NCBI RefSeq assembly: GCF_014203695.1
Contig: NZ_JACHJO010000004.1
Coordinates: forward strand, 124,001 to 188,000
Length of the DNA: 64,000 bases
Source of the DNA: Nocardiopsis algeriensis
Lineage (GTDB): Bacteria > Actinomycetota > Actinomycetes > Streptosporangiales > Streptosporangiaceae
Direction of reading: 5' to 3'
Below the pieces are notes generated by a model. It was not told where the DNA came from. It ran no database searches and saw only the letters and a list, made by a program, of their open reading frames with translations. The position numbers and the translations under genes are program-made. Positions 5,758-28,013 of the stretch are shown piece by piece (the first letter of the stretch is position 1; the number at the start of each line of letters is the position of its first letter).

Positions 5758-5790
5758 GGAGAAGAGACGGCGCCAGCCCGGCAGGGTGAC

Positions 5791-7200: not shown

Positions 7201-7240
7201 CGCGACCAGATCGGAATGAAACGGCCCTGGAGCGGACGAG

Positions 7241-7435
7241 ATGGCGGCCTTTGGGCCCGAGGACGCGCGGACGCTGGAGCTGCGGCACCAGATCGGAATG
7301 CTGGAGCTGGGCGCGGGCCGCCGGGAGGAGGCCGAGGCGACCCTGCGGGAGCTGCGCGGCGACCTGGTGCGGCTGCACGGCGTGCGGCACCCGGCGGTGG
7401 GCCAGATCGACGGGCTGTTGGCGGGGAAGGGCTGA
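7241..7435 (+). pseudogene. C-terminal fragment of a tetratricopeptide-repeat protein
   Basis: The 64-codon frame encodes a recognisable C-terminal TPR unit (GPEDARTLELRHQIGMLELG...HGVRHPAV). The pattern matches the last repeats of actinobacterial TPR proteins and TPR-bearing kinases, which are normally several hundred residues long. No upstream repeats or kinase domain are present. A 14-bp echo (ACCAGATCGGAATG) at 7204 and again at 7288 suggests a previous repeat was cut away. It is most likely a remnant left by insertion-sequence activity just upstream and probably non-functional. Confidence 0.55.
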
Positions 7436-7640
7436 GCCCTCCCCGTCCGGGGCCGGGGTTCCCGGCTCGCGCCGCCCGGTCGCTCGGTGGATGTTCGGGT
7501 TCGGTGGCGGTGAGGCGGCCGGTGCCGTCGTTCGTGGTGGAGGCGTCGGCGCCGGCGTCACAGAGCAGCCGGGCCCGCCCGCCTGAGCGAGCCCGGTCGG
7601 TCGGGTGCCGCCGTCCTCGCCGGACGGACGGCCGTGAAAC

Positions 7641-8390
7641 TCAGATCTGGTTCATGCCGCCGTCGACGTACAAGCTCGAACCGGTGATGAAGCTGCTCTG
7701 TTCGGAAGCGAGGAAGGCCACGGCGGCCGCGATCTCCTCGGGTTGTCCGAGTCGGCCCAGCGGCACCTGCGCGGCCAGCTGCTGCCTGAAGCCGGCGGCC
7801 TGTTCCGCGTCGGGAGCGAGCCCCGACAGGCCGGGGGTGTCGGTCGGGCCGGGGGTGACGGTGTTGACCCGGATGCCGCGTCCCTTGAGTTCGTTGGCCC
7901 AAGTACGGGAGAACGAGCGGGTGGCGGCCTTGGCCGCGGCGTAGGCACCGAACGCCTCCACACCGGAGTCGGCGTTGGTGGAGCCGTTCAGAATCACCGA
8001 GGCGCCGTCGTTGAGAAGCGGCAGCGCTTTCTGGACGGTGAACAGCGTACCTCGGACGTTGATGCCGAAGAGGGCGTCGAAGTGCTCCTCGGTGGTCTGC
8101 TCAAGTCGTGCGAACTCGGCGATGGAGGCGTTCGCGAACAGTACGTCCAGGCCGTGTCCTCGGTTGCGGACCGTCTCGTAGACGCGGTCCAGGTCGTCCG
8201 GGTTCGAGACATCGCCGATCACCGGGGTGGCCGCCGGACCGATCTCTTTGGCGGCTGCTTCGAGTTCGGTCCTGCGTCGGCCGGTGATGAACACGTGTGC
8301 GCCTTCGGCAGCCAGCCGTACGGCACTGGCCAGGCCGATCCCGCTGCTTCCGCCGGTGATCAGTGCGGTCTTGCCTTCGAGCAGGCCCAT
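7641..8390 (-). CDS. Short-chain dehydrogenase/reductase (SDR family)
   Basis: A 249-aa classical SDR predicted to be an NAD(P)-dependent oxidoreductase acting in the cytoplasm. The Rossmann motif TGGSSGIG is at residues 12-19, the NAS variant of the NAG motif near 87, Asn111, Ser137 and the YxxxK pair Tyr150/Lys154. The C-terminal GSSLYVDGG motif is complete, so the enzyme looks active. It is divergently transcribed from a TetR regulator with two palindromes in the 94-bp gap, a common arrangement in which the regulator represses the SDR and itself. The substrate is unknown; this subfamily is usually induced by small electrophilic or aromatic compounds. Confidence 0.88.
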   Translation of the reverse strand: MGLLEGKTALITGGSSGIGLASAVRLAAEGAHVFITGRRRTELEAAAKEIGPAATPVIGDVSNPDDLDRVYETVRNRGHGLDVLFANASIAEFARLEQTTEEHFDALFGINVRGTLFTVQKALPLLNDGASVILNGSTNADSGVEAFGAYAAAKAATRSFSRTWANELKGRGIRVNTVTPGPTDTPGLSGLAPDAEQAAGFRQQLAAQVPLGRLGQPEEIAAAVAFLASEQSSFITGSSLYVDGGMNQI

Positions 8391-8410
8391 GTCGACAACT
8401 CCTGTTGTTT

Positions 8411-8430
8411 TCTGTAGCGATCGCTACAGA
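8411..8430. promoter_or_regulatory. Operator 1, perfect 20-bp palindrome
   Basis: TCTGTAGCGATCGCTACAGA is a perfect palindrome 21 nt upstream of the SDR start, in the gap shared with the divergent tetR gene. Size and position fit a TetR-dimer operator; binding is inferred. Confidence 0.65.
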
Positions 8431-8445
8431 AATAGAACAGTAGCA

Positions 8446-8469
8446 CTTCTGTATGGATTGGTACAGAAG
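8446..8469. promoter_or_regulatory. Operator 2, inverted repeat before tetR
   Basis: CTTCTGTA and TACAGAAG half-sites are separated by 8 bp and lie 16 nt before the tetR start. They share the CTGTA/TACAG core with the palindrome at 8411-8430, which points to the same regulator and autoregulation. Confidence 0.6.
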
Positions 8470-8484
8470 AGGTAGAGTGCCGGT

Positions 8485-9093
8485 ATGAGGACCAGGCAGA
8501 ACGGCCGTACGGGTCGGCCCCGAGGATTCGACACCGACGAGGCCCTGGAGCGGGCCATGCTGGTCTTCTGGGAGCGCGGTTACGAGGGCGCCAGCCTGGC
8601 CGACCTGACCGGCGCGATGGGGATCTCCGCCACCAGCATGTACGCGGCCTTCGGCAACAAAGAGGAGCTGTTCCGCAAGGCCCTGGAACGCTACACCGAA
8701 GGCCCGGGCGCCTACCTGTCCCAGGCACTGGAGGAGCCGACCGCCCTCGCAGTCGCCACCGCGATTCTGACCGGCGCCGTCCGCACCACCACCCGCCCCG
8801 CCCACCCCCACGGGTGCATGGGCGTCCAGAGCGCGCTGACCACCGGCGACTCCGGGCGTGAGGTCCGCGACCTTCTCGCTGCCTGGCGCAACAACGGCTG
8901 CTCACGCGTCCGGGAACGGTTCCAGCGGGCCGTCGACGAGGGTGATCTGCCTCCCCAGGCCGACCCGGCCCTGCTGGCCCGCTACGTCGCCACCCTGGTG
9001 TTCGGCATCGCCGTGCAGGCCGCGAGTGGTGTCGGTCGCGACGAGCTCCAGGAGATGGCCGACGCCGCCCTGCGCAACTGGCCACTCTCCTGA
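8485..9093 (+). CDS. TetR/AcrR-family transcriptional regulator
   Basis: A 202-aa TetR-type repressor. The N-terminal helix-turn-helix spans about residues 20-65 (ALERAMLVFWERGYEGASLADL... followed by the ATSMYAAFGNKEELF recognition-helix region). The rest is a helical ligand-binding and dimerisation domain. It is divergent from the SDR, and the two inverted repeats between them are the probable binding sites. An AGAGGTAGAG ribosome-binding region precedes the ATG. The inducer is unknown. Confidence 0.88.
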   Translation: MRTRQNGRTGRPRGFDTDEALERAMLVFWERGYEGASLADLTGAMGISATSMYAAFGNKEELFRKALERYTEGPGAYLSQALEEPTALAVATAILTGAVRTTTRPAHPHGCMGVQSALTTGDSGREVRDLLAAWRNNGCSRVRERFQRAVDEGDLPPQADPALLARYVATLVFGIAVQAASGVGRDELQEMADAALRNWPLS

Positions 9094-9199
9094 GAACCCC
9101 GGCAGCGGTGGGAGGCGGTCCCGCACCGGCCCTGTCGGCTTGGGCCCCCTGTGCAGAGGAGCAGCACGGAAGCAGATGACGACCGGTGCTGACACACCG

Positions 9200-9775
9200 A
9201 TGAGCTCCCGGGCCCAGCGAGACCCCCTCCCGTGGTCAAAAAACGGCCGGAAACCGACCGTAGGAGGGGGGTTCGTCAAGGCCGCGCCCGTGCCGGCCGT
9301 GGCCTCCGGGCTGTTCGGCGGACATACGACGCACCGCTGTCCGTTCGCACCAGGGAACGCCGCTCTCCCCAGATCAACGCGGTGAACGCCCTGGCCTTCC
9401 CCGAGGCATGGCAGGTGGTGCGCATCGAGCGCCACCGCCGCCGGCACGGCATCGTCAAGGACAGCCGTGAGGTGGTCCTCGCCGTCACCGACCTGGACGC
9501 CCGCCAGGTCTCACCTGCGGAATTGACCGCGCACGCCCGCAAGCGCTGGACCGTGGAGAACCACGTGCATCATGTGCGGGACGTGGCCTTCAAAAGGACG
9601 CACGCCGCACCCGCACCGGAGCCGCCCCGGTCGTGCTGGGGTGCCTGACCGACACGTCCGCCAAGCCTTGACCGCTGCGGGGTGGAAGAACCTCGCATCA
9701 GCGGGCAGAGCCCACACCAGTCCGGACAAAGCCCTCGAGCTCCGCGGCACCACCCGGGACCAGCCCGTATGGATC
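9200..9775 (+). mobile_element. Degenerate ISAs1-family transposase remnant
   Basis: Two frames together encode the C-terminal part of an ISAs1-type DDE transposase. One (about 9232-9620) contains FPEAWQVVRIERHRRRHGI, VTDLDARQVSP and the RKRWTVENHVHHVRDV segment with the late catalytic Glu region. The other (about 9660-9770) contains LTAAGWKNLASAGRAH. A frameshift near 9600-9650 and the missing N-terminus show it is dead. No clear terminal inverted repeats are visible. A shorter scrap of the same kind lies at 28240-28370. Confidence 0.7.
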
Positions 9776-9821
9776 TGAAGCACGAGAACTCCGGGCCCTG
9801 CTTACAGATAGTGGCGCCTCG

Positions 9822-9892
9822 ACAATTCCATGACCCTTCAGACCCGTGCCCTTTTTCGCATGTCAGAACCCGGTCACGTCTTCGCGACTCGT
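9822..9892 (+). repeat. Dispersed ~71-bp repeat, copy A
   Basis: By eye about 80 % identical to 29057-29127; shared stretches include GACCCTTCAG and GCATGTCAGA. Both copies lie just after an ISAs1 remnant, so it may be the end of a degraded mobile element. Confidence 0.5.
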
Positions 9893-10035
9893 ACAGGCAT
9901 GGCGTTCGCGAGTTCCCCGACGAAGCACCAGAACTCCGGGACTCTGCCACCCTTGCAGTGCTTCGGCACGCGCATCAAGGACACCGGCAACGACATGTCT
10001 TACCCGCCTTGAGAGCAAGGAAGAGAATCAAACAA

Positions 10036-10893
10036 ATGTGGAGAGTTCTTTTCTACGTGACCCCGACCAGCCTTACTGTCGCTCTTGTTTTCTTTTTTCT
10101 GCTGTCGTGGGTGCTTGCTGTCGCCATAAAGAAAAGAGGAGCGAGCTTTTCGAGGTCTGCGCGAGCAGCCCTGGCGCTTGCCGCCTTCTCCTATGTTTTT
10201 CTCCTGTCGATCCTACCCCTCGGGGGAGAGCAACCTGGCTCCGGTAGGTTGATCCATTGGAATCCCCTTCATTTCATACACGACCACAACTCCGAGGGGG
10301 CCATCGAGGAGAGCTTCGGACAGCAGCTCTCAGACGGGAACACCGTGTACTACAGCCCGGACGAGCTACCTGCAGAGGAGAGGTCGGAAATCCAAAAAAT
10401 GTCCCCGTATGATTTCTTTGCCCACGGGAACATTGAGTCGGGCGTGATCGTGTCGAACCCCGAAGGGGACGTTGTTCCGCAAAGCCAGGGCCAGCACATT
10501 CTCACGGAAATATCTGAGGCCATAGAGGTGTCCAGCGAGCCTGTGCAATCCCAAGGCATGATCCTCGAGGAAAAGTCATTGAATTTCCTCTTGTTCGTAC
10601 CCCTGGGGGTTCTGGCTTATTTTTCTTTCTCTTCCCATGCCGCCCGAATGGCCACTGGCCCTGCAGTTTCTCTTTCCATTGAGGTGGTCCAATGGTCTGT
10701 GGCGTGGGGGCGCACTGCAGACACTGCCGACCTGCTGGCCAACTCTCTTGGCTCCTTCTTGGGAGTGGCTATGGGGATGCTGGCATCAGCGCTTGCCGTG
10801 CTGACCAGGCGAAGCGAAATAAATGGCGGAAGGCGTGCCGCCTCGGCTGGTCATGGTGCCGGTAGAAGACCAAGAGGTCGTCACGGTTCCTGA
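10036..10893 (+). CDS. VanZ-family membrane protein
   Basis: A 285-aa integral membrane protein. ATG 10036 is chosen because AAGGAAGAG precedes it and the hydrophobic N-terminal helix starts here. Hydrophobic segments lie near residues 5-30, 40-60, 185-215 and 225-255. VanZ features are present: an early ILPLGGE region, NFLLFVPLGVLAYF and the terminal EVVQWSVAWGRTADTADLLANS stretch. A long hydrophilic insert of about 110 residues between the first and second membrane halves is unusual for the family. VanZ proteins are linked to teicoplanin resistance and cell-envelope functions, but the mechanism is unknown. GC content is clearly lower than in neighbours, suggesting acquisition from elsewhere. 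Confidence 0.75.
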   Translation: MWRVLFYVTPTSLTVALVFFFLLSWVLAVAIKKRGASFSRSARAALALAAFSYVFLLSILPLGGEQPGSGRLIHWNPLHFIHDHNSEGAIEESFGQQLSDGNTVYYSPDELPAEERSEIQKMSPYDFFAHGNIESGVIVSNPEGDVVPQSQGQHILTEISEAIEVSSEPVQSQGMILEEKSLNFLLFVPLGVLAYFSFSSHAARMATGPAVSLSIEVVQWSVAWGRTADTADLLANSLGSFLGVAMGMLASALAVLTRRSEINGGRRAASAGHGAGRRPRGRHGS

Positions 10894-11151
10894 AGCGTTG
10901 CAGCAAACTCGGAACGAAACGGAAATGGAGGGGTTGCCCGCGGACCCGGTCGTCGGCCGGAGAGCTCCCGGACGCTCCCCGGCGCAGGTCCGTTGCCCGG
11001 TCTCCTCGGGTCTGCCGGGCGAGGGCTTTCGCGCCCTGGCGCACGCTCGTGACGGTTACACTGGGGCAACACTCGCATACAGGCGAGCCCGCCGGGTGCT
11101 GGAACACCACGACGGGCTCTGACCGACCAACCTGCTAGACCCAGGAAGGCG

Positions 11152-11170
11152 GCTAGGCATGGATCCTAGC
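11152..11170 (+). promoter_or_regulatory. Stem-loop enclosing the start codon of the 33-codon ORF
   Basis: GCTAGG (11152-11157) and CCTAGC (11165-11170) can pair across a 7-nt loop that contains the ATG at 11159. It could limit initiation of the small ORF and, through coupling, of the gene after it. This rests on base pairing only. Confidence 0.35.
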
Positions 11171-11260
11171 TTCATCGCGCTGCGTACCCGAAATCGGATC
11201 GCCGCCGACCCCCGCGTCTTCGGACGCACGGTGGGCACGCCCCGGGGAGGTGCCCGTTGA
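11159..11260 (+). CDS. Small 33-codon ORF coupled to the downstream gene
   Basis: The ATG at 11159 follows an AGGAAGG ribosome-binding site and the ORF encodes a basic 33-residue peptide. Its TGA stop (11258-11260) overlaps the TTG start (11257) of the next gene, so ribosomes finishing here could reinitiate there. It may be a real micro-protein or simply a coupling leader. No family is recognised. Confidence 0.4.
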   Translation: MDPSFIALRTRNRIAADPRVFGRTVGTPRGGAR

Positions 11261-12543
11261 GGGTTCACCGCACCCGGCACGACCGGCACTTCACAGCACT
11301 CCCCAACACGCTCCTGCGCGACCCGCGGCTGTCCTACCGGGCCCGCGGGGTCCTGGCCGAGCTCCTCTCCCGTCCCGACGGCCGGTGGGCCACCGCCGAC
11401 TCCCTCTCCCGCATCGCCAGGCATGAGCGCGGTGGCAGGGGCGAGGGCCGCGACGCGATGCGCGCGGTGTTCGCCGAGTTGAAAGCCGTCGGATACCTCG
11501 CCGCTGTCCGGGTCCGCAAGGACGACGGCACCGTCACCACCGAGCTGCACGTCCACGACGTTCCCCGGTTCCCGGGCGAGGTGCCCGAACACCCCGTTGC
11601 CGACCGAGGTGCGGGACACCAGGCGTCGGCTGGCCGGTCGCCGGTCCATCAGGCGTCTACACGAAGTACTGATGACGAAGAAACACCGTCCGTCCGGAAG
11701 CGGGAAACCACAGGACGCGCGCCCGCGCACGGTGCGGCACCGGAGCGGAGCGGCCCTCTCCCCCACAGCCATGAAGGTGCGACCGCCGAGCACTCGACGA
11801 CCCGGCCTGCGGCCGCGCCGCCGGGCAGCGGCCCGTCGATGTGGGCCCTGGGGGTGCTTGCCCTGGTTCCCGACGCCGCCCTGTACGCACCCGACCGGGA
11901 CCGGGCCGCCCTCGCCGGCCGTCTGGACACCCTCGCCAGGGCGGGTGTGCCCCGCGCCGACCTCGAACGCGCGGTACGGGGGTGGGAGGACACCGTCCGG
12001 CCGTTCGCCGCGCTGACGGTGCGCCTGGCCTCGCCGGAGAGCGTGCGCGCCTGGAACGCCCGCGCCGCTGCCCGCCCCGGCCCGGGGCACGGCTTCGGCG
12101 GGGTGCCGCTCGGCCGGGCCGCCGGGCACGGGGAGGAAACACCCGCGCAGCGGCCCCGGTTCGTCCTCGACTCCCAGGGCACGGCGGCACGGACCTGTCC
12201 CGTCCATCCGACCGTGCGCAACGTCCCCGGCGGGGCGTGCCGGGTATGCGGGCGGCCCTGCCGTACCGAGCCCGGCGGGCCGGTAGACGCCGGGAGCACC
12301 TCCCGAGCGGCGCCCGGGGCGGGCCCGCTCCCGGGTCTGCCGGTCGGTGTCGACGACCTGTTCTCCGTGCCCAAGTGCGACGACCCCCGGTGCTGCTCGG
12401 ACCGGTCCTCCCCCCGCTACCGGACCGTCACCCGGCTCGACGCCTCCGGAAGCAGGATCTCGGCCGTCCCCTGCCCCACGTGCGGACATCGCCTGGCGGA
12501 AGCATCGACGTCCTTGTCCACACCCGTTCCGGTTGCGGCCTGA
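11257..12543 (+). CDS. Winged-helix and zinc-finger protein of genomic-island type
   Basis: A 428-aa protein starting at TTG with GGAGGT eight bases upstream. Residues 1-110 form a replication-initiator-like winged helix (TALPNTLLRDPRLSYRARGVLAELL, then SLSRIARHERG). A long Pro/Ala/Gly-rich linker with low complexity follows. The C-terminal third carries cysteine/histidine clusters (CPVH...CRVCGRPC, CDDPRCCSD, CPTCGH) that look like two zinc-binding units. Such proteins occur in actinobacterial integrative elements and islands, where a DNA-binding or regulatory role is assumed. The overlap with the 33-codon ORF suggests translational coupling. The exact function is unknown. Confidence 0.7.
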   Translation: MRVHRTRHDRHFTALPNTLLRDPRLSYRARGVLAELLSRPDGRWATADSLSRIARHERGGRGEGRDAMRAVFAELKAVGYLAAVRVRKDDGTVTTELHVHDVPRFPGEVPEHPVADRGAGHQASAGRSPVHQASTRSTDDEETPSVRKRETTGRAPAHGAAPERSGPLPHSHEGATAEHSTTRPAAAPPGSGPSMWALGVLALVPDAALYAPDRDRAALAGRLDTLARAGVPRADLERAVRGWEDTVRPFAALTVRLASPESVRAWNARAAARPGPGHGFGGVPLGRAAGHGEETPAQRPRFVLDSQGTAARTCPVHPTVRNVPGGACRVCGRPCRTEPGGPVDAGSTSRAAPGAGPLPGLPVGVDDLFSVPKCDDPRCCSDRSSPRYRTVTRLDASGSRISAVPCPTCGHRLAEASTSLSTPVPVAA

Positions 12544-12670
12544 CACGGCTGGGACGGGTGTGCACCGTCTCGGGCGGAAGGGACGGGGTCAGGGCCGTTG
12601 CAGGCTCCCGCGCAAGTGGCGGGTGAGCCAGGTCAGGCGTTTCCAGTCCTCCGGGCTCGTGCCCTCGCAT

Positions 12671-12687
12671 CTCTCCCCAAAGGAGAG
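12671..12687. terminator. Weak hairpin between convergent genes
   Basis: CTCTCC (12671-12676) and GGAGAG (12682-12687) form a 6-bp stem with a 5-nt loop, and CCTTTTCC follows. It lies between the zinc-finger gene and the oppositely oriented paralogue array. It is a possible terminator for the plus strand. Confidence 0.3.
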
Positions 12688-12855
12688 GGCCATCCACCTT
12701 TTCCGTGATCCGATGTATGAAAAACCGAGCACATAGCTACCGATAAGAGTTCAAATGTCGTGGAGCAGGGCCACAACGGTATGGCCGACAGGCGGGGAGC
12801 GCAGGCCCGGCTCCACCGGAACACCAGCGACAGGGTGACTCGCGACAGGTGGTGG

Positions 12856-13674
12856 TCAGCGCTGGGCGATCTCTTTGAGCTCGTCCAGGCTTGCGGCAAC
12901 ACGCTCCTGGGCATCGGCGTCGATACGCCCTCCCCTGAGGTCCTCGGGAGCACCGATCCGTGAGCGCAAGGCCCGAAGCGGGGAAACACCGCTCTCCTGA
13001 AGGCGCATGAACTCGCCCACCCACCAGCGATGAGCACGGTTATGAACAACTTCCGGAGGGAGCAAAGGTTGGAAGTCTGCCGCGTCGTCGGTCACTGATG
13101 CCCACAGGTAGCCGATGAGATGTTCCCCCAGGCGCACAGGAATATAGCGGACCGGCTGGTCTGTGTAAGACCTGTAGGTCTTGCCGACCGTGACGGGTGC
13201 AAAGTCGTCCCAGCTGCCTCCAGCGGCAAGGGACATCGTGTCCTGAGGCTCCCCGCCTCTCTCTTCTGGAATCAGTGGGTCCTCGTGATCGGGGTTGGCC
13301 AGCCGCAGCAGCGCGTCGATGTCAGGGGCTCTTTCAATTCGAGCCGCTTCGGGTATACCGCCAGCTTCAGGGTGCTCGGAATATCTCTTCCAGCGCTCCA
13401 ACGCTTCCACCGGGGCGAGCCCCTCGCGGCAGGAGGACACAAGCCTTTCCTCCCAGTAGACCGCAGCGTCGATACGCGACCCGGTCTCCAGAGCCGATAT
13501 GACCACGACGTATCCCGCAGCGTGAGCCTCGAGGTCTGCAGAGCACCACACATAGCCAATCGTGACCCCTCTCAGCACCACTGGATAGTGCAGCACTGGG
13601 CCTTCGCAGAAATTTTCGTACTCAGCACGACGAATACCAGCCACCCCACTCATTTTTCTCTTACCAAGGTCCAA
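12856..13674 (-). CDS. Two-module hypothetical protein, paralogue 1
   Basis: A 272-aa protein of a family I do not recognise. A second ATG seven codons in is an alternative start. It contains two versions of one module. The first has LHYPVVLRGVTIGYVWCS and ends at GLAPVEAL. The second has RYIPVRLGEHLIGYLWAS and ends at GVSPLRAL. Both follow the plan PV-L-G-IGY-W-S, an acidic/hydrophobic stretch, then G-P-AL. The last 60 residues are almost the same as in paralogues 2 and 3. There is no signal peptide, membrane helix or catalytic motif. Its 3' DNA is about 90 % identical to that of the other two copies. An antitoxin or immunity role would suit tandem duplication, but that is speculation. Confidence 0.7.
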   Translation of the reverse strand: MDLGKRKMSGVAGIRRAEYENFCEGPVLHYPVVLRGVTIGYVWCSADLEAHAAGYVVVISALETGSRIDAAVYWEERLVSSCREGLAPVEALERWKRYSEHPEAGGIPEAARIERAPDIDALLRLANPDHEDPLIPEERGGEPQDTMSLAAGGSWDDFAPVTVGKTYRSYTDQPVRYIPVRLGEHLIGYLWASVTDDAADFQPLLPPEVVHNRAHRWWVGEFMRLQESGVSPLRALRSRIGAPEDLRGGRIDADAQERVAASLDELKEIAQR

Positions 13675-13725
13675 AAATCTTCTGCCCAGACAACAGCCGC
13701 GTCAATACGGGAAAGTGTGAATGTG
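13650..13725 (-). pseudogene. Remnant of a fourth paralogue
   Basis: In a frame different from paralogue 1, about 20 residues (TFTLSRIDAAVVWAED) match the SRIDAAVYWEE region of paralogue 1 and the equivalent positions of the others. A stop follows at 13650. No other part of the gene is present, so this looks like a leftover of duplication and deletion in the array. Confidence 0.45.
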
Positions 13726-13884
13726 TCCCCGGCTCGCCTTCCCGATAGCTCCTGAAGCACCGAAGACGTTCGTGTCGGACTCATGCTGGTGGTCAGGGCT
13801 TCGGTGCGCACACACCATTTCGAAACTTTCAGGCGAGATGTGTTTGCGGAGCAGGGCCACAACGGTAGGGCCCGCGTCCGAGGC

Positions 13885-14060
13885 GGTGGTCAGCGCTGGG
13901 CGATCTCCTTGAGCTCGTCCAGGCTCGCGGCAACACGCTCCTGGGCATCGGCGTCGATACCACCTCCCCTGGGGTCCTCCGGAGCACCGATCCGCGAGCG
14001 CAGAGCCTCGAGCGGAGAGACACCGCTCCCCCGAAGTCGCATGAACTCGCCGACCCACCA
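13885..14060 (-). repeat. 176-bp perfect direct repeat, copy 1
   Basis: Identical base for base to 14885-15060, exactly 1000 bp away, and covers the 3' ends of paralogues 2 and 3. Sequence on both sides diverges at once. Recent gene conversion or recombination is the simplest explanation. Confidence 0.95.
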
Positions 14061-14720
14061 ACCCCGGGCGCGGTTATGGAAAATCTCTGGGGGGAGCAAA
14101 GGCTGGAAATCTGCCGCATCGTCGGTCACCGATGCCCACAGGTACCCGATCACGCGGCCTTGCAAAAACACCGGGAGATAGCGTACCGGCTGTCTTGTCC
14201 GGGGGGCGTACGTCTTTCCTATTGTCTCCGGGGCGAAATTATTCCACCTGTCTATTTCGGGCCACAGCTGGGGTTCTCCACCTGTGACCGCTGGAAGCGA
14301 AGGATCAGAATAGTCAGGGTTGACCATGTCATCCAAGGTGTCGTTGTCCGGCAGCTCTTCGAGCTCGGCGCATACAGGCACGCGTCCGGCCGCTGGATGC
14401 CCCGGAAACTCCTTCAATGAAATCAATGCCTGGATCGGATCCAGCCCGCTTCGAAACGATTCTTCAAGCCGACCTTCCCAGACAATCAAAGCGTCTATTC
14501 TCTGCTCCAGCCCGAGCGCCGCCATCACTGGAGCGTAACCGGCTGCGCCGACCTCTGGACTTGCTGAACACCAAAGGTGCCCAATGTTCACACCTCGAAG
14601 TTCCACTGGAAGGTGAAGAATCGGGCCATCACACGAGGAATCGTAACTTGATTTTTCAAAACCAGGCGATATGAACACCACCGCCCCCCGTTCCAGGAAA
14701 AGCAGAACACCACACAACAT
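13890..14720 (-). CDS. Two-module hypothetical protein, paralogue 2
   Basis: A 276-aa frame. The ATG at 14720 lacks a clear ribosome-binding site, and a GTG about 15 codons in is a plausible alternative. The two modules are visible as LHLPVELRGVNIGHLWCS (about residues 34-51) through GLDPIQAL, and RYLPVFLQGRVIGYLWAS through GVSPLEAL. The C-terminal 57 codons plus the stop are identical at DNA level to paralogue 3. Middle sections diverge strongly and are less GC-rich, so the gene looks mosaic: variable front, homogenised back. Function unknown. Confidence 0.7.
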   Translation of the reverse strand: MLCGVLLFLERGAVVFISPGFEKSSYDSSCDGPILHLPVELRGVNIGHLWCSASPEVGAAGYAPVMAALGLEQRIDALIVWEGRLEESFRSGLDPIQALISLKEFPGHPAAGRVPVCAELEELPDNDTLDDMVNPDYSDPSLPAVTGGEPQLWPEIDRWNNFAPETIGKTYAPRTRQPVRYLPVFLQGRVIGYLWASVTDDAADFQPLLPPEIFHNRARGWWVGEFMRLRGSGVSPLEALRSRIGAPEDPRGGGIDADAQERVAASLDELKEIAQR

Positions 14721-14884
14721 CTGCTACACCCATGTCGCATTTCCGGCAGCTAGGCAGACATTGACACTGTATCCTGAACTCCCGGCAACAATAAGGTCCC
14801 TTTGGCCCAGATATCAACTTCTCGTGTCAACTCATATTTCCTGGGTATCGGTGGCTACCCCCAGGATTGCCCTGGAGAGGAGGT

Positions 14885-15060
14885 GGTGGTCAGCGCTGGG
14901 CGATCTCCTTGAGCTCGTCCAGGCTCGCGGCAACACGCTCCTGGGCATCGGCGTCGATACCACCTCCCCTGGGGTCCTCCGGAGCACCGATCCGCGAGCG
15001 CAGAGCCTCGAGCGGAGAGACACCGCTCCCCCGAAGTCGCATGAACTCGCCGACCCACCA
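14885..15060 (-). repeat. 176-bp perfect direct repeat, copy 2
   Basis: Partner of 13885-14060. It encodes the shared C-terminus of paralogue 3. Paralogue 1 carries a related but diverged version around 12852-13030. Confidence 0.95.
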
Positions 15061-15702
15061 GCCGTAGGCACGGTTGTGGACCACTTCCTGAGGCCGCAGA
15101 GGCTGGAAATCAGCTGCGTCGTCGGTTGCCGACGCCCAGAGGTAGCCGATCACGCGGCTTTGCAAGGACACCGGAAGGTAGTGGACCGGCTGGCCGGTCC
15201 AGGAGTCGTATGTTTTTCCTATGGTCTCCGGAGCGAAGTCGTTCCATCTGTCCATGCCGAACAACAGGAAATCACTGTCATCCTGACTCTGTTCGGGCTC
15301 GCCTCCGAGTTCCTCTGGGATCGGAATCGGAACGTATCCGGGTTCCACCACTCGGCCCAGGGCCTCCTCGTCAGGAAGTTCCTCCACCGGTGTTCCTGCG
15401 GGGACACCTCCGGCCTCAAGGTGTTCGGGTTCCTGCCTCCACAGTTCCAAGGCCTCCCGGGGCGGGAGCCCCTGGCGTGCAGCCTGGGCCATCCGCTCCG
15501 ACCAGACAAGCACCGCCTTGATCCGGTCTTCCAGATCGAGAGCAGAAATGACCATGGTGTACCCGGCAGCGTACTCCTCGGAATTCTTCGCACACCATAT
15601 ATGGGCGATCTTTTTTCCGGAAAGGAAAACTGGACAGTGGAGTATCGGGCCTTTGCAGGAACTTCTGTATCCAGCCCTCTCCGAACTGGACCTTTTGTCC
15701 AT
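14890..15702 (-). CDS. Two-module hypothetical protein, paralogue 3
   Basis: A 270-aa protein. ATG 15702 is chosen because GAAAGAGGAAGAG precedes it and the length then matches paralogues 1 and 2; the frame itself is open further upstream. Module 1 (LHCPVFLSGKKIAHIWCA through GLPPREAL) and module 2 (HYLPVSLQSRVIGYLWAS through GVSPLEAL) are both present. A short insert around EQSQDDSDFLLFGMDRW is specific to this copy. It is the first gene of the minus-strand array, which may be transcribed as a unit, although about 170-210 nt separate the members. Function unknown. Confidence 0.72.
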   Translation of the reverse strand: MDKRSSSERAGYRSSCKGPILHCPVFLSGKKIAHIWCAKNSEEYAAGYTMVISALDLEDRIKAVLVWSERMAQAARQGLPPREALELWRQEPEHLEAGGVPAGTPVEELPDEEALGRVVEPGYVPIPIPEELGGEPEQSQDDSDFLLFGMDRWNDFAPETIGKTYDSWTGQPVHYLPVSLQSRVIGYLWASATDDAADFQPLRPQEVVHNRAYGWWVGEFMRLRGSGVSPLEALRSRIGAPEDPRGGGIDADAQERVAASLDELKEIAQR

Positions 15703-16062
15703 CAGCTCTTCCTCTTTCGATGTCGGTCGTCCTGCAATGATTTTTGCGTCCGGGATCCCCAGCCCTTCGACCTGTCGGATCCCGGTTTCCCATGTCTCGT
15801 TCCCCTGGGAAGAAGCAGCTCCCGCCGGCAGGAACGCACTCCTGGTGCCCCGGAGGCCGTGGCCCCGTTCAGCACACCCGAGGTGGGGCGCTCGTGCAGC
15901 AGATCCACGATGGCGTGGCCGGTGGGCAGGGTGTAAGGGACTTTGGGATGTCGGCGGCAGGGCGGCCCTCGGGCGGGGAGACCCGCGACCAATCACCCCG
16001 TTCCGCCGACTCGGCGCACGGGGGTGCCCCGCCTGCGGACACCGCCGGGCAGGAACGCCGAA
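15703..16062. other. Gene-free stretch upstream of the paralogue array
   Basis: No convincing gene is seen in these 360 bp. The upstream part is moderately GC-rich and probably carries the promoter of paralogue 3, but no clear -35/-10 pair could be chosen. A minus-strand segment around 15885-15940 reads like a broken coding fragment (LPTGHAIVDLLHERPTSGV), with no family recognised. Confidence 0.4.
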
Positions 16063-16106
16063 GCCGGTCGCCCCGGCCGCTGTTCGATGCGGCCGGGGCA
16101 ACCGGC
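16063..16106 (-). terminator. Hairpin terminator of the giant ATPase gene
   Basis: GCCCCGGCCGC (16070-16080) pairs perfectly with 16089-16099 across an 8-nt loop. An outer GCCGGT/ACCGGC pair extends the stem to 16063-16106. It lies 11 nt beyond the stop of the minus-strand ATPase gene. Confidence 0.7.
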
Positions 16107-16116
16107 TCCGTGCGGC

Positions 16117-19100
16117 CTACAGTCCCCGGTGCTGCCAGCAGCGGGCCAGGAGCGGCTCGACCCGGTAGGTGTCCTCCTCGACCTGGTCGAACACGTCCAG
16201 GGCCTCCAGGCACGCCACCGCCGTGTCGGGGTCGGGGTGGGCCTCCCGGAGCCCGACCGCCTCGACCAGTTCACCCCGGCTCGTCGGACCGTCGATCAGC
16301 TCGATCACCGCGTCGAAGGCGGCGGCCAGGGGGCGGTGCGCGGTCAGGCCGACCTGTTCGACCAGGGCGGCCGCCCGCCCCGGCTGGGCCAGTTCCTTGG
16401 CCAGCCGCTCCAGGGCCCGCTTCTCCTGGTGTTCCTGGGCCAGCTCCTGGGCCCGGTCCACGAGGACCGGCCAGCCGCCGGTGATCTCCAGCAGGTGCTC
16501 CTGGCGCTCGGAGACGCCGAACAGCCCGGTGTCCCGGGACCAGACCTGCAGGGACAGCCGGTCGTACCGGCGCAGCCGCACCAGCCCCAGCCCGTCGCGC
16601 TCGGGTCCGGCCAGCAGCATCTCCCAGAAGTCGGCCTGGGTCGGGTCCGAGACCAGGACCACCGACCGGGTCACCCCGCGTCCGGTGGGGGTCCGCTCCA
16701 GGGCGGCCTCCACGCCGGCCAGACAGGTGCTGGCGCGGGAGGTGACCCGGGACAGGTCGGACAGGACGATGCGTCGCCGGCCCTTGCGGCCCTGCTCCAG
16801 GGCCTCCTCGTAGCGGCGCCGGTCCTGGGGCTCCTGGAGGTCGAAGCGGTCACCGAACTCGTCGCGGACCGAGCGGATCGTCTCGGTGACGTCGGCGATG
16901 CCCGTGGCCGGCGACCCCAGTACCAGGCGGACCTGGTTGGCGTGGTCACCGAGCAGGTAGTCCAGTTGGGCGGTGGTGAGCGGTGCGAGACGCCTGTCGC
17001 CCAGGGGGCGGCGGACGGTCAGCGCGATGGACTCCGCGGGCACGGCCTCGGAGTCGGCGTCCACCAGTGCGGTCATCACCGTGTCGTTGGTGCCCATCAT
17101 CCGCAGCGCGTTGGCCGAGCGCAGCCGCCAGCCGCGCAGGTCGCGGTTGTCGGCCAGCAGTCCCAGCCCCACCATCTCCTTGAGGTAGGCGCGGAAGGCC
17201 TCGGAGTCCAGGCCCTCGAAGCCCCGCCTCCAGTAGGACAGGCACTCCTCGCGCAGCTCCATCTCGGTCAGGCGCACGTCCAGCCCCCGCTCGTAGGCGT
17301 GGTGGGCGAGGACGTTGGCGATGATGTTGTAGCGCGGGTCCAGGTGCAGGGTGTCGCGGAAGGTCTCGATGATGTCGTCCCGCAGCTCCGGGTCTCCCTC
17401 CACCGCCTCCACGTCGGAGAGGGCGACGATGTAGGGCGGTTCGCTCCCGCCGGTCCCGGTCCTGCGCATGTCGTGCATGTGCCGGACCAGCCGGTCGCAG
17501 AACATCTGCAGGAGGAAGGGCTGGTAGGAGCAGTGGCCCAGGATCCGGTGGATGAGCTCCTCGCTCTCGAAGCGGAAGCCGAGCGCCCCCATGGGCCGGG
17601 TGACCAGGTCGTAGGCGTGGAACGGGCGCAGGTGCCCGATCATCGTCGGGCTCTGGGCCAGGTGCTTGAAGGTGTTGTTGGACAGCTTCGCGAAGCGCTG
17701 CACGGAGTGCAGGCCGGCGAAGACGACCTTGGCCCGGCTCTCGGCGCCCGCGAGCTGGCCGAGTTCCTTGAGGCGGCGGGTCTCCAGGAAGCGGGGGGCG
17801 TCCGCCTCGAAGAACCCGTCCGACTCGTCGAGCATGACGAGCAGCCTGCGCCGGGAGTCCGCGGTGAGCCAGGCCAGGACCCCCGCGCGCACCTGGTCGT
17901 ATGCCTTGCCCGTGTCCCGTTTGCCCGGCCTGGACACCACTCCCGCACCGCGGAGCTCGCGCAGCAGCACGTCCCACACCGCGTCCGCGCCCTGGGCTCC
18001 CTGTCCGATGGCGGCGGTGCTCAGCTCGATGTGCAGGGCGACCCGCTCGGGCTCCTGCTCGAAGGCGGTCTTGGCCGAGCGCAGGAGGGCCGACTTGCCC
18101 AGGCCCCTTCCGCCGAAGAGCACCTGGGTGTCCTCCGGGTCGATGACGGCCCGGCGCTCGCGGTCGCGTCCGTAGAACATCTCCGGCGGCACCAGCGAGC
18201 GCTTCTTGCGGGCGTAGGGCTGCACGGCGGAGAAGGGCAGCAGGACCGCCAGGGCGGTGTCGACCTGGCGGTTGCCGTGCGCGGCCAGGTAGGCCAGGGC
18301 CGCGTCGTCGACCACCACCACGGAGGTGTCGCTGTGCACCGCCTCCACGGCGAACCTGCGCCGGACCTCGGAGGGCATGGTGCCCATGTAGGCGACCAGC
18401 AGGGAGTCGCCGGAGGTGTCCTTGTCCACCCAGCTGCGCAGCAGTTCGGCGCGGGGCTGGCTCCAGCACACCATCACCCGCAGCCGGCCGTGGAGCTTGC
18501 TCCCGAACTGGGGGACCGTGGGACGGCCGTTCCAGGCCACCCTGGAGAACTCGAAGGATCCGCGGTCGAGCCCCTTGGCCGCCCGGAGCGGGTTGAGGGA
18601 CGCCGAGGCCGGGATGTCGTAGCCGAGCAGGCGCAGAGCCGGCACGAGGAAGGTGCGGACGGCGCGCGCACCGAGCTGGTTCCGCTGCCGGATGGGGGTG
18701 TCCCTGGCCTCCCTCCAGGCTTCCAGGGCGTCGGCGACCAGGTCGCGGGCGTCGGTGGACAGCCCCCCGAAGTCCAGGCCGGAGCCGCCCTCCAGGGGAA
18801 GGACGCCCCCGCGGCGGGCCATCTCCACCAGCTCCGCGGTGATCCCTCGTGGGAGCCCGTCGGGGACGCGGGGGAAGAAGTCGGGCAGTTCGCGCTCGTC
18901 GAAGGGTTCGGGGACGGACTCGCCGATCTCGCTGAAGTAGATGAGTTCCTCGGCCGTCAGCAGCTGGCCGTCCTCGATGAGGGAGCGGATACGCCTCTCG
19001 TCGACCTCGGGACCCTCCGCCCGCTTCACCAGCGCGTCCAGGCGTTCGGTGAGCCGGGACGCCGCCTCGCGGCGGTAGGCGGGCAGGTCGCGCGCGACCT

Positions 19101-23493: not shown

Positions 23494-25590
23494 GTGCCCC
23501 AGCTGGCCATCCACAAGGACTTCCTCACGGAGTTCGCCGCTCTCGACAAACCCGTGCGCGAGCGTGTCGCCGAGGTGTTCACCAAGTTCGAGCAGGCCAC
23601 CCACACCGGCCTGCACCTGGAGAAGATCACCGGAGCCCGCGACGACCGCTTCCGCACCATCCGCATCGACCAGTTCTGGCGCGGTGTCGTGCTGGCGCCC
23701 GAGAGCGGGGACACCTTCCTCCTGCTCAGGGTGCTGCCGCACGACAAGGCCTACGAGTGGGCCAAGACCCGCCGGGTGTCGGTGAACACCGCCACCGGCA
23801 GGATCGAACTGCGCGACGTGGCGGCGATGGACTCGGCGCTGCCCCAGCTGGAGAAGATGGCGGCCAAGGCGCCCGAGCGGCTGTTCGCGGGCGTCTCCGA
23901 CGCGGTTCTGCGCAAGCTGGGCGTGGACGAGCAGACACTGGGCTTCGCGCGCACCCTCACCGAGCCCTTCCAGGTGGAGGCTGCGCAGAGCCTGCTCCCA
24001 CCGGTGCAGTGGGAGGTGCTCTACGGCCTGGCCGCGGGGATGAGCCCTGAGCAGGTCTGGGAGGAGCTGGGCGCTCAGATCACCGAGGAGGTCGACCCCG
24101 AGGACCTGGAGGCGGCGCTGCGGCGCAGCCCCGAGCGGGTGCTGCTGGTGGAAGGGCCCGCCGAGCTCATGGCGGTGCTGGCCTCGCCCTTCGACCTGTG
24201 GCGGATCTACCTGCACCCGGCCCAGCGCTCGGCGGTGGAGGCCTCCTACCGGGGGCCGGCGCGGGTCAGCGGCGGGCCCGGGACCGGCAAGACCGTGGTG
24301 GCGCTGCACCGCGCCCACCGGCTGGCGCGGTCGGGCGGCCCGGTGCTGCTGACCACGTTCACCTCGACGTTGGCCGAGGCGCTGGAGGCCAACCTGGCGC
24401 TGCTGGCCGAGAGCAGCGGGGACGCCGAGGCGGCCGGGCGGGTGCGGGTGGAGCACGTGGACCGGCTGGCGCACCGGGTGTTCCGGGAGGCGCACGGGCG
24501 GCCGAACCTGCTGGTGCAGGCGCGCGAGCGGGAGCTGTGGCAGCGCGTCGTCGACCGGTTGGGGGTGGACCTGTCCCCCGCGTTCCTGGCCGAGGAGTGG
24601 CGCCAGGTGGTGCTGGCCCGGCAGGTGGGCTCGGCCGCGGAGTACCTGCAGGCCAAGCGCACCGGGCGCGGGCGCGCGCTGGCGCCCACGAAGAAGGCGC
24701 AGGTGTGGCAGGCGGTGTGGGAGTTCCAGAAGGAGCTGTCCGCGCAGGGCCTGTGGACGCACGAGACGGTGTGCGAGGAGGCCGCGCGGCTGCTGGCGGA
24801 CCGCGACGACAAGCCCTTCGCGCACGTGGTGGTGGACGAGGCCCAGGACCTGAGCGCCCACCAGTGGCGGCTGCTGCGCGCCGCGGTGGCCGAGGGGCCC
24901 GACGACATGTTCGTGGTGGGCGATGCCCACCAGCGCATCTACGGTCCTGGGATCACGCTGGGCGAGGTCGGGGTGAACGTGCGCGGGCGCTCCTCGAAGC
25001 TGTCGGTCAACTACCGCACCACCGGCGAGATCCTGGGGTGGAGCCTGGGGCTGATGCGCGGGCAGGCCGTGTCCGACCTGGAGGGAGAGCTGGACTCGCT
25101 GGCGGGGTGCCGCTCCGAGATGCGCGGGGCCGAGCCGTCGGTGAAGGGCTTCGCCACGTGGGATGCGGAGCTGGCGTACCTGAGGGAGACCGTGGGTGCG
25201 TGGATCGACGCGGGGGTGCTGCCCTCGGAGATCGGCGTGAGCGCCCGCTCCAACCGGGCGGTGGAGCAGGCCGTGCTCGCCCTGGAGGAGGCCGGGATCC
25301 CGGCGCGGGCGCTGGCGCGCGGCACCGCCGAGGGCGGCGGGGTGGCGGTCGGCACCATGCACCGGATGAAGGGGTTGGAGTTCCGGTGCCTGGCCGTGGT
25401 CGGCGCGGGGAGCGGACAGCTGCCCGAGCCTCGCGGCCTCACACCCGAGGAGGAGGACCCGGGTGCCCATTCCCGGGACCTGCTGCGCGAGCGCAGTCTG
25501 CTGTTCGTGGCGTGCACGCGCGCGCGGGAGCAGCTGAGTGTGAGCTGGCACCAGGAGCCCAGTCCCTTCATCGAGGCGCTGCTCTCCTAG
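23494..25590 (+). CDS. UvrD-type helicase with N-terminal RelE/ParE-like domain
   Basis: A 698-aa fusion. GTG 23494 follows GGAAGA, and family members begin at the equivalent MPQLAI sequence. Residues 1-100 resemble a RelE/ParE toxin fold (LDKPVRERVAEVFTKFEQ... RFRTIRIDQFWRGVVLAPESGDTFLLLRVLPHDKAYEWA). The rest is a superfamily 1A helicase: Walker A GGPGTGKT near 260-267, DEAQD near 448, VGDAHQRIYG, SVNYRTT, TMHRMKGLEF and FVACTRAREQL. All helicase motifs are intact. It would act on DNA ends or stalled forks. It is followed after 146 nt by a DUF262 gene on the same strand, and such pairs suggest a defence module. Whether the RelE-like part still cuts RNA is unknown. Confidence 0.85.
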   Translation: MPQLAIHKDFLTEFAALDKPVRERVAEVFTKFEQATHTGLHLEKITGARDDRFRTIRIDQFWRGVVLAPESGDTFLLLRVLPHDKAYEWAKTRRVSVNTATGRIELRDVAAMDSALPQLEKMAAKAPERLFAGVSDAVLRKLGVDEQTLGFARTLTEPFQVEAAQSLLPPVQWEVLYGLAAGMSPEQVWEELGAQITEEVDPEDLEAALRRSPERVLLVEGPAELMAVLASPFDLWRIYLHPAQRSAVEASYRGPARVSGGPGTGKTVVALHRAHRLARSGGPVLLTTFTSTLAEALEANLALLAESSGDAEAAGRVRVEHVDRLAHRVFREAHGRPNLLVQARERELWQRVVDRLGVDLSPAFLAEEWRQVVLARQVGSAAEYLQAKRTGRGRALAPTKKAQVWQAVWEFQKELSAQGLWTHETVCEEAARLLADRDDKPFAHVVVDEAQDLSAHQWRLLRAAVAEGPDDMFVVGDAHQRIYGPGITLGEVGVNVRGRSSKLSVNYRTTGEILGWSLGLMRGQAVSDLEGELDSLAGCRSEMRGAEPSVKGFATWDAELAYLRETVGAWIDAGVLPSEIGVSARSNRAVEQAVLALEEAGIPARALARGTAEGGGVAVGTMHRMKGLEFRCLAVVGAGSGQLPEPRGLTPEEEDPGAHSRDLLRERSLLFVACTRAREQLSVSWHQEPSPFIEALLS

Positions 25591-25736
25591 ACCATGCTCC
25601 CCGGACCGCCCCGGACCGCGCGGCCGCAGGACGTCTTCCCGCCGTCGCGGCCGTGCTCGCGGGGCGGGCGGTGCGGGGAGGACGACCCAGTGGCCTGCGT
25701 ACACGACGCCCCACCGAGCGGAGGAAACACCCCACC

Positions 25737-28013
25737 ATGGCGAAGCTGTCCCAGATCCTCGACCAGGTCGACTCCGAGACCATTCTCCTGCCGGAGTTCC
25801 AGCGCGGCTACGTGTGGAACCGCGACCAGGTGCGCGGGCTGCTCCGGTCGATGTACCTGGGCCATCCGGTGGGCAGCCTGCTCCTGTGGGAGACCGCCGA
25901 CCCCGCCGTGTCGGCGCGCGGCAGCTCCGCGGGAGCCGGTACCTATCAGATGCTGCTGGACGGCCAGCAGCGCATCACGTCGCTGTACGGGGTGATCAAG
26001 GGGAAGCCGCCGAAATTCTTCGACGGTGACGCCAAGGCATTCACCGGCCTGTACTTCAACGTGGACAGCCAGGAGTTCATGTTCCACTCCCCCACCCGGA
26101 TGTCGGGGGAACCGCGGTGGGTGGACGTCACCCAGCTGTTCGCCAAGGGCCCGGCCCGCTTCTTCGCCCGGCTGGCCTCCGAGTACGGCGAGGACCTCGC
26201 CGAGGCCTACCTGGACCGGATGAACCGGCTGCACCAGATCACCGAGCGCGAGTTCCAGCAGGAGAAGATCACCGGCGCCGACCGGGACGTCGAGGAGGTC
26301 GTGGAGATCTTCAACCGGGTCAACTCCGGCGGCACCAAGCTGTCCAAGGGTGACCTGGCCCTGGCCCAGGTGTGTGCTCAGTGGCCCGACGCGCGCAAGG
26401 AGATGCGGGCGGCCATCGACCGCTGGGAGAAGCGCGGGTACAAGTTCAACCTGGACTGGCTCCTGCGGACCACCATGGCGGTGGCCACCGGCAAGGCCCG
26501 GTTCGAGCAGCTGGCCAAGGTGGGCGCCGAGGAGTTCCGTGACGCGCTGGAGCGGGCGGTCGCCCACACCGACACGTTCCTGGAGGCGGTCGCGGGCCGG
26601 CTCGGTCTGGACCACGACCGGGTCCTGAAGAGCCGCGCGTCGCTGATCGTCGCGGTGCGGCTGCTGGAGCTCAACGGAGGCGAGTTCGACGACCGGTCGC
26701 ACCGCGACAAGGTCCTGTACTGGTACATGCACTCGGCGCTGTGGGGACGCTACAGCGCAATGACCGAGAGCACGCTGCAGAAGGACTTCGACACGGTGGC
26801 ACGCAGCGGGGTCGACGGGCTGATCGCGACGCTGGAGCGTTCGCGCAGCGGTGCGCTGGCGGTGCGCCCGCACGACTTCGAGGGCACGCAGGGGACACGC
26901 TTCTACCCGCTGCTGTACCTGCTGATGCGTTCGGGCAGCGCCCGCGACCTGGTCACGGGCCGAGAGCTCACCTCGGCGGCCCTGGAGTCGGGGAACCAGT
27001 TGCAGCGGCAGACGCTGTTCCCGACCGCGCTGCTGCGCGGTCACGACGCCAAGGCCGACGCGATCGCCAACTTCTGCTTCCTGGTCGACGGCGACCACCT
27101 GGGCATCGGCCAGGCGGCCCCCGAGGAGTACCTGGGCCGGATCGAGGCCGAGAACCCGGGGGTGCTGGCCTCGCAGTGGATCCCCGCCGACCCGTCGCTG
27201 TGGCGGGTGGAGCGCTACCGCGACTTCCTGGCCGCGCGCCGGGAGATGCTGGCCGAGGCGGCGCAGGCCTTCCTGGAGGGGCTCCGGGAGGGAACCGCCC
27301 CCGAGGAGGAGAAGCTGAGTCCGCTCACCGTGGTGGCGGAGGAGGCCGGCGACCCGCGCAGCGTGCAGGTGCGGACCCTGGTGGAGGAGCTGCGCGAGGC
27401 GGGGTACGCCGAGCCGGAGCTGGACACGGTGATCAGCGACCCGGGAAGCGGCCGGGTCATCGCCGAGGCGGAGGCGTTCTGGGCCGAGGGGCTGCAGCGG
27501 GGACTGGGCAAGCCGGTGGTGCTGGAGCTGGACCCCGAGCAGGCGGACCTGCCACGGCTCCAGGAGCTGGGGTACGAGGTGTTCACCTCGGTGGAGGCGC
27601 TGTCGGGGTTCGTGCGCCGCAGCGCGCAGGAGGCCTCCGGCACGCACCCGGTGGAGGTGCCCGCCGAGCCGGTCGGGTCCGCCGGGGAGGAGCACGGCGG
27701 CGGGGACGACACCGAGAAGGCCTTCCACCAGGCGATGGTGTCGGTCTACGAACGGGCCAAGGAGGAGGCGGGTTACACGCCGTCGTTCTTCCTGGGGATG
27801 CTCGCGGATCTGGGGGCGCTGGGGACGGCGCGCAAGCTGTTGGCCGCCCCGGCGGTCTCCGACGGGTTCTCCAACCTGTGGGAGCGGGGCCGGCTGGACC
27901 TGACGGTGGAGGCGGTGGTGCTGCGGCCGGAGTTCGCCGAGCTGTTCACCGCCGAGGAACTGGACCGGGCCCGCGGGCGCCTGGAGCAGTTCGGGTACGC
28001 GTTCGCGGGCTAG
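25737..28013 (+). CDS. DUF262 (GmrS-like) protein with extended C-terminus
   Basis: A 758-aa protein. ATG 25737 is preceded by GGAGG. The N-terminal ParB/Srx-like DUF262 domain has LLPEFQRGYVW, the DGQQR motif at residues 75-79 and FNRVNSGGTKLSKGDLALAQ, all characteristic. DUF262 domains hydrolyse nucleotides or recognise modified DNA in GmrSD, BrxU and related restriction systems. No DUF1524/HNH nuclease is seen, so it differs from GmrSD fusions. The last 95 residues (EKAFHQAMVSVYERAKEEAGYTPSFFLGML to the end) form a separate helical domain of a type that also occurs at the ends of other actinobacterial proteins. It follows the UvrD/RelE fusion and probably works with it; this is inference. 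Confidence 0.85.
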   Translation: MAKLSQILDQVDSETILLPEFQRGYVWNRDQVRGLLRSMYLGHPVGSLLLWETADPAVSARGSSAGAGTYQMLLDGQQRITSLYGVIKGKPPKFFDGDAKAFTGLYFNVDSQEFMFHSPTRMSGEPRWVDVTQLFAKGPARFFARLASEYGEDLAEAYLDRMNRLHQITEREFQQEKITGADRDVEEVVEIFNRVNSGGTKLSKGDLALAQVCAQWPDARKEMRAAIDRWEKRGYKFNLDWLLRTTMAVATGKARFEQLAKVGAEEFRDALERAVAHTDTFLEAVAGRLGLDHDRVLKSRASLIVAVRLLELNGGEFDDRSHRDKVLYWYMHSALWGRYSAMTESTLQKDFDTVARSGVDGLIATLERSRSGALAVRPHDFEGTQGTRFYPLLYLLMRSGSARDLVTGRELTSAALESGNQLQRQTLFPTALLRGHDAKADAIANFCFLVDGDHLGIGQAAPEEYLGRIEAENPGVLASQWIPADPSLWRVERYRDFLAARREMLAEAAQAFLEGLREGTAPEEEKLSPLTVVAEEAGDPRSVQVRTLVEELREAGYAEPELDTVISDPGSGRVIAEAEAFWAEGLQRGLGKPVVLELDPEQADLPRLQELGYEVFTSVEALSGFVRRSAQEASGTHPVEVPAEPVGSAGEEHGGGDDTEKAFHQAMVSVYERAKEEAGYTPSFFLGMLADLGALGTARKLLAAPAVSDGFSNLWERGRLDLTVEAVVLRPEFAELFTAEELDRARGRLEQFGYAFAG

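Follow-up and report, generated by a model that had tools for sequence, protein, structure and literature searches.

What is the use of three tandem genes that are nearly invariant at one end and widely different at the other, in a genome that seems to hold no partner for them? This question is raised by genes A, B and C of a 64,000-nt stretch of Nocardiopsis algeriensis (positions 124,001 to 188,000 of contig NZ_JACHJO010000004.1, hereafter the window), which a sequence-only reading had assigned to the diversifying recognition or immunity families. Our analysis makes it likely that their products are cytoplasmic immunity proteins belonging to an unnamed family, directed against ADP-ribosyltransferase (ART) toxins that related actinomycetes would deliver through the type VII secretion system (T7SS), the toxin being absent here and the array having been kept. 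The window genome is referred to as G000, the genus sample comprised 40 genomes, and G and L labels denote the genomes of relatives and the gene neighbourhoods, respectively.

The array and its homogenised tails

A, B and C are tandem paralogues in a single orientation (Table 1), and their starts were chosen because each protein then begins 22 residues ahead of the same histidine. The intergenic gaps, of 211 and 236 bp, are too small to hold a toxin gene, so that none interrupts the array. When the C-terminal ~97 residues of C were made into a profile, it matched both halves of all three proteins, with 76-114 bits each; as the N-terminal halves are also recognised by this C-terminal profile, each protein consists of two copies of a ~97-aa module joined by a linker, the plan that had been proposed from the letters alone. 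We refer to the two copies as head and tail. AlphaFold2 gave a confident model of the repeated module (pLDDT 90.4, pTM 0.83), composed of three strands and two helices followed by a short strand and a closing helix, and a model of the whole gene C protein (pLDDT 83.3, pTM 0.53) in which the stretch 127-160, mostly linker, has low confidence.

The two genes reported to be identical over 176 bp at a distance of 1000 bp are B and C, and the run is exact, covering the last 57 codons and 5 bp past the stop. Its edges are sharp, as identity drops to 3-7 of 20 bases over 100 bp on the spacer side and is 10-18 of 20 bases over the 200 bp that follow on the gene side. Inside the tract none of the 57 codons differs between B and C, while 24 of the 43 codons preceding it do (15 synonymous and 9 non-synonymous changes), and between A and B 17 of the 57 tract codons are changed (12 synonymous, 5 non-synonymous). 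The chance of 176 consecutive matches is P ~1e-21 at the rate found outside the tract and ~3e-9 at the rate found between A and B within it.

Heads and tails were also compared with two orthologues only, those of Nocardiopsis sp. CC223A (G035) and Nocardiopsis sp. N85 (G015). The heads, which had been said to differ widely, share 47-49% identity with one another and 45-60% with these orthologues, the head of C being closer to that of G015 (60%) than to those of A or B (47%). Over the last 57 residues, in contrast, identity is 89-100% within the array (the near-invariant C-terminus of the sequence-only reading) and 68-72% to the orthologues. Because tail identity within the array exceeds that to the orthologues while head identities are comparable, the tails undergo concerted evolution, and the heads are old lineages that, judging from the two orthologues compared, apparently cross species.

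Association with ADP-ribosyltransferase toxins

Forty neighbourhoods from 36 genomes were picked from the genus and family match tables, which hold further places, before their neighbours were viewed. In 29 of them the end of an ART domain lies 82-272 nt upstream of a module on the same strand, according to a profile that was seeded with the toxins of 12 of the 40 loci and iterated once and is thus not blind. Pfam independently recognised ADPrib_exo_Tox in all six ART-positive adjacent toxins scanned. By our own reading of their residues, the toxins of the family would belong to Tox-ART-RSE. The association extends to whole genomes: the ART model of Pfam and a second profile, made from 19 ART domains, agreed on the same 20 of the 40 genus genomes, 14 of which also carry the family, with 3 genomes having the family only (G000, G002 and G039), 6 having ART only and 17 having neither (Fisher p 0.001). 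Furthermore, across 19 toxin-immunity pairs the identities of the two partners are correlated (Mantel r 0.72 for the head and 0.70 for the tail, reached in 0 of 5000 permutations).

One family member (L081:9248-12316; 1022 aa) combines two modules with two ADP-ribosylglycohydrolase stretches (E 3e-123) and adjoins an ART toxin. As ADP-ribosylglycohydrolases are known enzymatic antidotes to ART toxins, this fusion supports an immunity role, and the protein may be a binder-plus-eraser antidote. The hydrolase family, PF03747, was not found in A, B or C, and L081 is the only carrier among the members scanned.

The secretion genes that were sought beside the homologues are also present in many places. 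Pfam identified WXG100, EccB, EccD with YukD, FtsK/SpoIIIE and an S8 protease in L049, EccD with YukD and DUF6507 in L063, and DUF6507 again in L047. Sequence clusters of T7SS core genes, whole or in pieces, occur in 16 of the 40 neighbourhoods, or in 22 when the DUF6507 cluster is included, and at the N-terminus of the L082 toxin there is a WXG100_2 match below the cut-off. These genes, together with the L082 match, suggest that the ART toxins are exported by the T7SS.

Several neighbourhoods drew attention for other features. In G003 and G010 (G003:C18:25699-48768 and G010:C47:67134-91355; L095, L096, L094 and L055), stop-to-stop frames of 7689 and 8073 aa lie immediately upstream of two single-module family genes, and each frame contains ten ART domains in an order common to both. 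Five of the ten domains have the R / S-T / E residues and five miss at least one of them, in a largely alternating pattern that recalls the two-domain ART toxins in which one domain is inactive. At L056 (G039; 2455-7650) a T7SS-type effector without an ART domain is followed by a 128-aa gene and then by a family member, and this looks like a swapped toxin end with an older immunity gene left behind. L070-L074 and L076 are mixed arrays of family members and other genes that are immunity-like by eye, and one gene in L070 and one in L074 have a TNT toxin match at the C-terminus.

An orphan locus in the window genome

Neither the Pfam ART model nor the 19-domain profile found an ART domain in the window genome; both this absence and the toxin class go beyond the sequence-only reading. 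The corresponding slot of G035 is occupied: there the order is a kinase-like gene (labelled by eye), a DUF6177-type gene, the immunity gene, the toxin, a DUF6507-type gene, and counterparts of the UvrD-type helicase and GmrSD genes. The window has the remnant of the kinase-like gene, other genes, the array and then the helicase and GmrSD genes (Table 1), the place of the toxin and the DUF6507 gene being taken by two other genes, one ATPase-like (1980 aa; 16117-22059) and one NUDIX-like by eye (160 aa). The 1980-aa protein, encoded upstream of the array, had only a sub-cut-off AAA_22 match and no NCBIfam or PADLOC match. The G015 locus also lies near matches to other window genes. Because the genome lacks ART while the syntenic slot of G035 holds a toxin and an immunity gene, the array is, with its predicted immunity role, an orphan homogeneous polyimmunity locus.

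Searching the window by tblastn with the locus proteins of G015 and G035 (E 0.01) revealed no DUF6177, DUF6507 or toxin remnant. The top match of the ART profile in the six-frame window is a possible relic of a toxin 3' end, ~90 nt upstream of gene C; its score was reached by 3 of 500 shuffles against the G015 toxin and by 29 of 500 against the G035 toxin, and the DNA similarity of the region upstream of C to toxin 3' ends was not above that of shuffles.

Elsewhere in the window genome, G000:C6:110629-113803 (L098:2629-5803) encodes a T7SS-type effector of 926 aa without a Pfam match, with a DUF6507-like partner (labelled by resemblance) upstream, so that an effector locus of such a kind exists there without ART.

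Family distribution and searches for relatives

The family is neither single-copy nor slowly evolving in all relatives, the finding that would have spoken against diversification: counting its members gave matches in 17 of the 40 genus genomes, with 1-3 per genome; outside the window genome their identity to gene C, counted along the part that matched, is 29-58%. Of 298 genomes sampled from the taxonomic family of the organism, 63 have it; at the level of the class it was seen in 12 of 296 sampled genomes, in a scan that used another query and scored no more than 16 candidates in each genome. Scanning named genome contigs found no relatives with gene C alone and six loci with a narrow alignment, and plasmids and phages gave no tblastn match to gene C.

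No named Pfam or NCBIfam family matched A, B or C above the cut-off, and PADLOC, run with gene C only, had no match. Weak rows for DUF2732, TIGR03382, DUF7360, SseB_N, DUF1541 and DUF6835, each in one protein, were taken as chance. None of the 23 family members scanned matched a Pfam immunity family (whether that copy of Pfam includes Imm41 was unchecked) or, at E 0.1, DUF600. The best PDB match by sequence had E 0.36. With the models of gene C and of the single module, Foldseek found no match at E 0.001 and VIA no row with Z of 5 or more. The DUF600 protein BH3703 and EsaG were among the Foldseek rows as weak matches (E 0.3-2.8, TM about 0.1-0.17). Because N-terminal domains of HipA and HipS recurred in VIA at Z 3-4 (five chains at Z 3.1-3.6 over 65-77 of 106 residues), a profile comparison with six HipA N-domains from related genomes was made; the hhalign probability was 1.9%, and this relationship is unsupported. 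Empty fold searches do not establish a new fold.

Other features of the region

A fourth copy had been suspected between A and B. As a protein, this fragment reached a score against A that none of 2000 shuffles attained (8 of 2000 against B and 24 of 2000 against C); as DNA, its score was reached by 8 of 300 shuffles against A, 18 of 300 against B and 51 of 300 against C. The remnant of a further head module is thus probable at the protein level, and the claim found no such backing at the DNA level. A and B also have in common a 25-bp 3' flank that is absent from C.

The DNA at 12600-16110 has a GC content of 61.5%, compared to 71.5% for the window, and a codon-model gene caller found a weak coding signal there, calling only part of C; from these two features it may be read as foreign or fast-evolving. 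Promoter and terminator scans gave consensus matches only, and no Rfam family was found at window positions 7000-24000. PADLOC identified Wadjet JetC2, JetB2 and JetA2 genes at 32422-39616 which, along with the UvrD-type helicase and GmrSD_N genes, give the region a resemblance to a defence island.

Table 1. Coordinates of the array, its tracts and flanks, and the markers of synteny in the window
Feature	Position	Strand	Description
Gene A	12856..13653	-	265 aa, ATG; open frame; two-module protein of the putative immunity family; modules 95.8 + 108.5 bits against the family profile
Gene B	13890..14678	-	262 aa, GTG start inferred by comparison with A and C; open frame; two-module protein of the putative immunity family; modules 76.1 + 114.0 bits
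Gene C	14890..15702	-	270 aa, ATG; open frame; two-module protein of the putative immunity family; modules 81.0 + 109.4 bits; AlphaFold2 model
Homogenised tract, gene B copy	13885..14060	-	Last 57 codons + 5 bp past the stop; identical to 14885-15060
Homogenised tract, gene C copy	14885..15060	-	Identical to 13885-14060
Probable fragment of a fourth head module	13650..13725	-	Protein-level match to A; weak at the DNA level
25-bp 3' flank of A	12762..12786	-	24/25 identical to 13848-13872
25-bp 3' flank of B	13848..13872	-	Common to A
Possible relic of an ART toxin 3' end	15792..15839	-	~90 nt upstream of gene C; top ART-profile match in the six-frame translation of the window, E 0.19
Kinase-like gene (by eye), C-terminal remnant	7232..7420	+	G035 synteny marker; 63-aa match to L048.3 at 71%
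UvrD-type helicase and GmrSD_N genes	23494..28013	+	Other G035 flank; 71% and 62% to L048.8 and L048.9; Pfam

Discussion

The diversifying immunity family that had been suspected is supported by the ART toxins beside its members, the homogenised tails and the divergent heads, and the following course of events can be proposed. In the relatives, the immunity gene stands directly behind the toxin gene and would guard the producer; in the window genome, the toxin would have been lost and the immunity genes would stay as a polyimmunity array against the toxins of kin. Judging by analogy with cytoplasmic immunity proteins already known, the probable mode of action is that the module binds to the ART domain and thereby blocks its active site. 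The diverging head module would probably set toxin specificity, whereas the tail module, kept alike by recombination between copies, would serve as the frame and may be a homology block by which copies are gained, lost or given new heads, a division of roles comparable to that speculated for EsaG and argued for TipC.

Some observations weigh against this proposal. Within 300 nt, eleven of the 40 neighbourhoods lack an ART domain: the closest strong one lies 2174 nt away in L057, the upstream side is masked in L078, and the profile detected none in L051, L053, L056, L059, L060, L064, L072, L080 and L086. The effector beside the ART-negative L056 member has no Pfam match either, and 6 of the 20 ART-bearing genus genomes have no family match. 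The covariation of toxin and immunity proteins is confounded by species relatedness, which could give much of it. Moreover, head and tail covary about equally with the toxin, which does not favour the head, so that its part in specificity is argued from its divergence and nothing else. Finally, the toxin relic is weak, with its E of 0.19, and is suggestive of toxin loss as a hint and not as proof.

Three other explanations were weighed. It seems extremely improbable that strong constraint on the protein, without recombination, made the tails alike. The tail module is indeed better conserved between species too (57-79% identical, against 45-60% for the heads), and constraint may account for part of the similarity of A; but protein constraint does not explain why synonymous changes are absent from the B-C tract, although the next 43 codons have 15 of them and A and B differ by 12 in the same 57 codons. 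The array might otherwise be a dead relic, in which the toxin has been lost, the copies are decaying and the tract identity is left from a recent duplication. One copy is a fragment, the locus is disturbed, and the atypical codon use and low GC would agree with decay. However, all three frames are full-length, their modules are intact and their starts plausible, and a single recent duplication would have left the heads alike as well as the tails, while they are old; we consider a relic unlikely.

A different role, as chaperones in the secretion of the ART effectors or as partners in their targeting, could be suspected for the module proteins, given that their genes adjoin effector genes along with small partners such as DUF6507. 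The positions differ, however, since the module genes lie downstream of the toxin and the DUF6507-type genes upstream of it in L047, L048, L063 and L065. A chaperone would moreover need neither tandem copies nor loci without ART (there are several, in addition to the window genome) nor a fusion to an ADP-ribosylglycohydrolase, and such a role appears very unlikely.

The proposed immunity array has counterparts among known systems. According to the parts of PMC9484751 that deal with the Firmicute T7SS genes esaG and tipC, these form strings of non-identical immunity genes with conserved and variable parts, recombination between paralogues alters their copy number and yields mosaics, and one conserved block of esaG spans the gene end and the downstream spacer; roles for the conserved block and the variable part are speculated upon by the authors for EsaG and argued for TipC. 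The array is similarly made of tandem immunity-type genes with a conserved block and a variable part that recombine. It differs in phylum, in its ART toxin class, in the two-module protein and in the absence of the toxin from the genome, and no sequence relation was found, as the 23 family members have no match to DUF600 or another immunity family. Homogeneous polyimmunity loci, in the sections of PMC3482391 concerned with them, were defined in 2012 as tandem paralogous immunity genes in one orientation without intervening toxin genes, and polyimmunity proteins as polypeptides with several immunity modules. A, B and C agree with this in being same-strand tandem paralogues with several modules per protein and no toxin between them; compared with what those sections describe, the gap lengths, the intergenic module fragment and the lack of a Pfam immunity family (23 members scanned) set the array apart.

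Antidotes to ART toxins have precedents as well. In the portion of PMC11699363 on the Bacteroides ART toxin Bxa, the toxin is neutralised by the hydrolase BAH, beside the immunity protein Bsi, which binds and blocks it. The parallel is that of a binder and a hydrolase against an ART toxin, which L081 joins in one protein; the Bacteroides system, as described there, is prophage-encoded and has the two as separate genes. For Tox-ART-RSE, the corresponding entries of PMC3482391 give the immunity families Imm41 and Imm-ADP-RGHD. These resemble the present family as immunity against a broad ART class, and L081 has an ADP-ribosylglycohydrolase, but in A, B and C there is neither a glycohydrolase domain nor a match to a Pfam immunity family. 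Thus recombining tandem T7SS immunity genes in Firmicutes and polyimmunity loci were known already. New here, as far as a literature search by title and abstract start can tell, are the family itself, the plan of two modules per protein, the link to ART in actinomycetes and the marked contrast between head and tail, none of which was found described among the open-licence PMC papers listed.

A bolder proposal, which we put forward as doubtful, is that the module is a new immunity fold in which the heads are old trans-species specificity lineages and the tails a gene-converted landing block for head swapping, so that the orphan arrays of Nocardiopsis would form a standing repertoire against the ART toxins of kin, including the ten-ART giant effectors.

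Interbacterial antagonism by the T7SS appears to be less studied in actinomycetes than in Firmicutes. The present analysis gives a family that is unnamed in Pfam and NCBIfam a testable job, that of an antidote to T7SS-linked ART toxins in actinomycetes, and the family also led to very large effectors, with ten ART domains in each of the two read through. Its divergent heads and homogenised tails offer a natural experiment in which antidotes can be seen to follow the variants of a toxin, in parallel with esaG and tipC and apparently independently of them.

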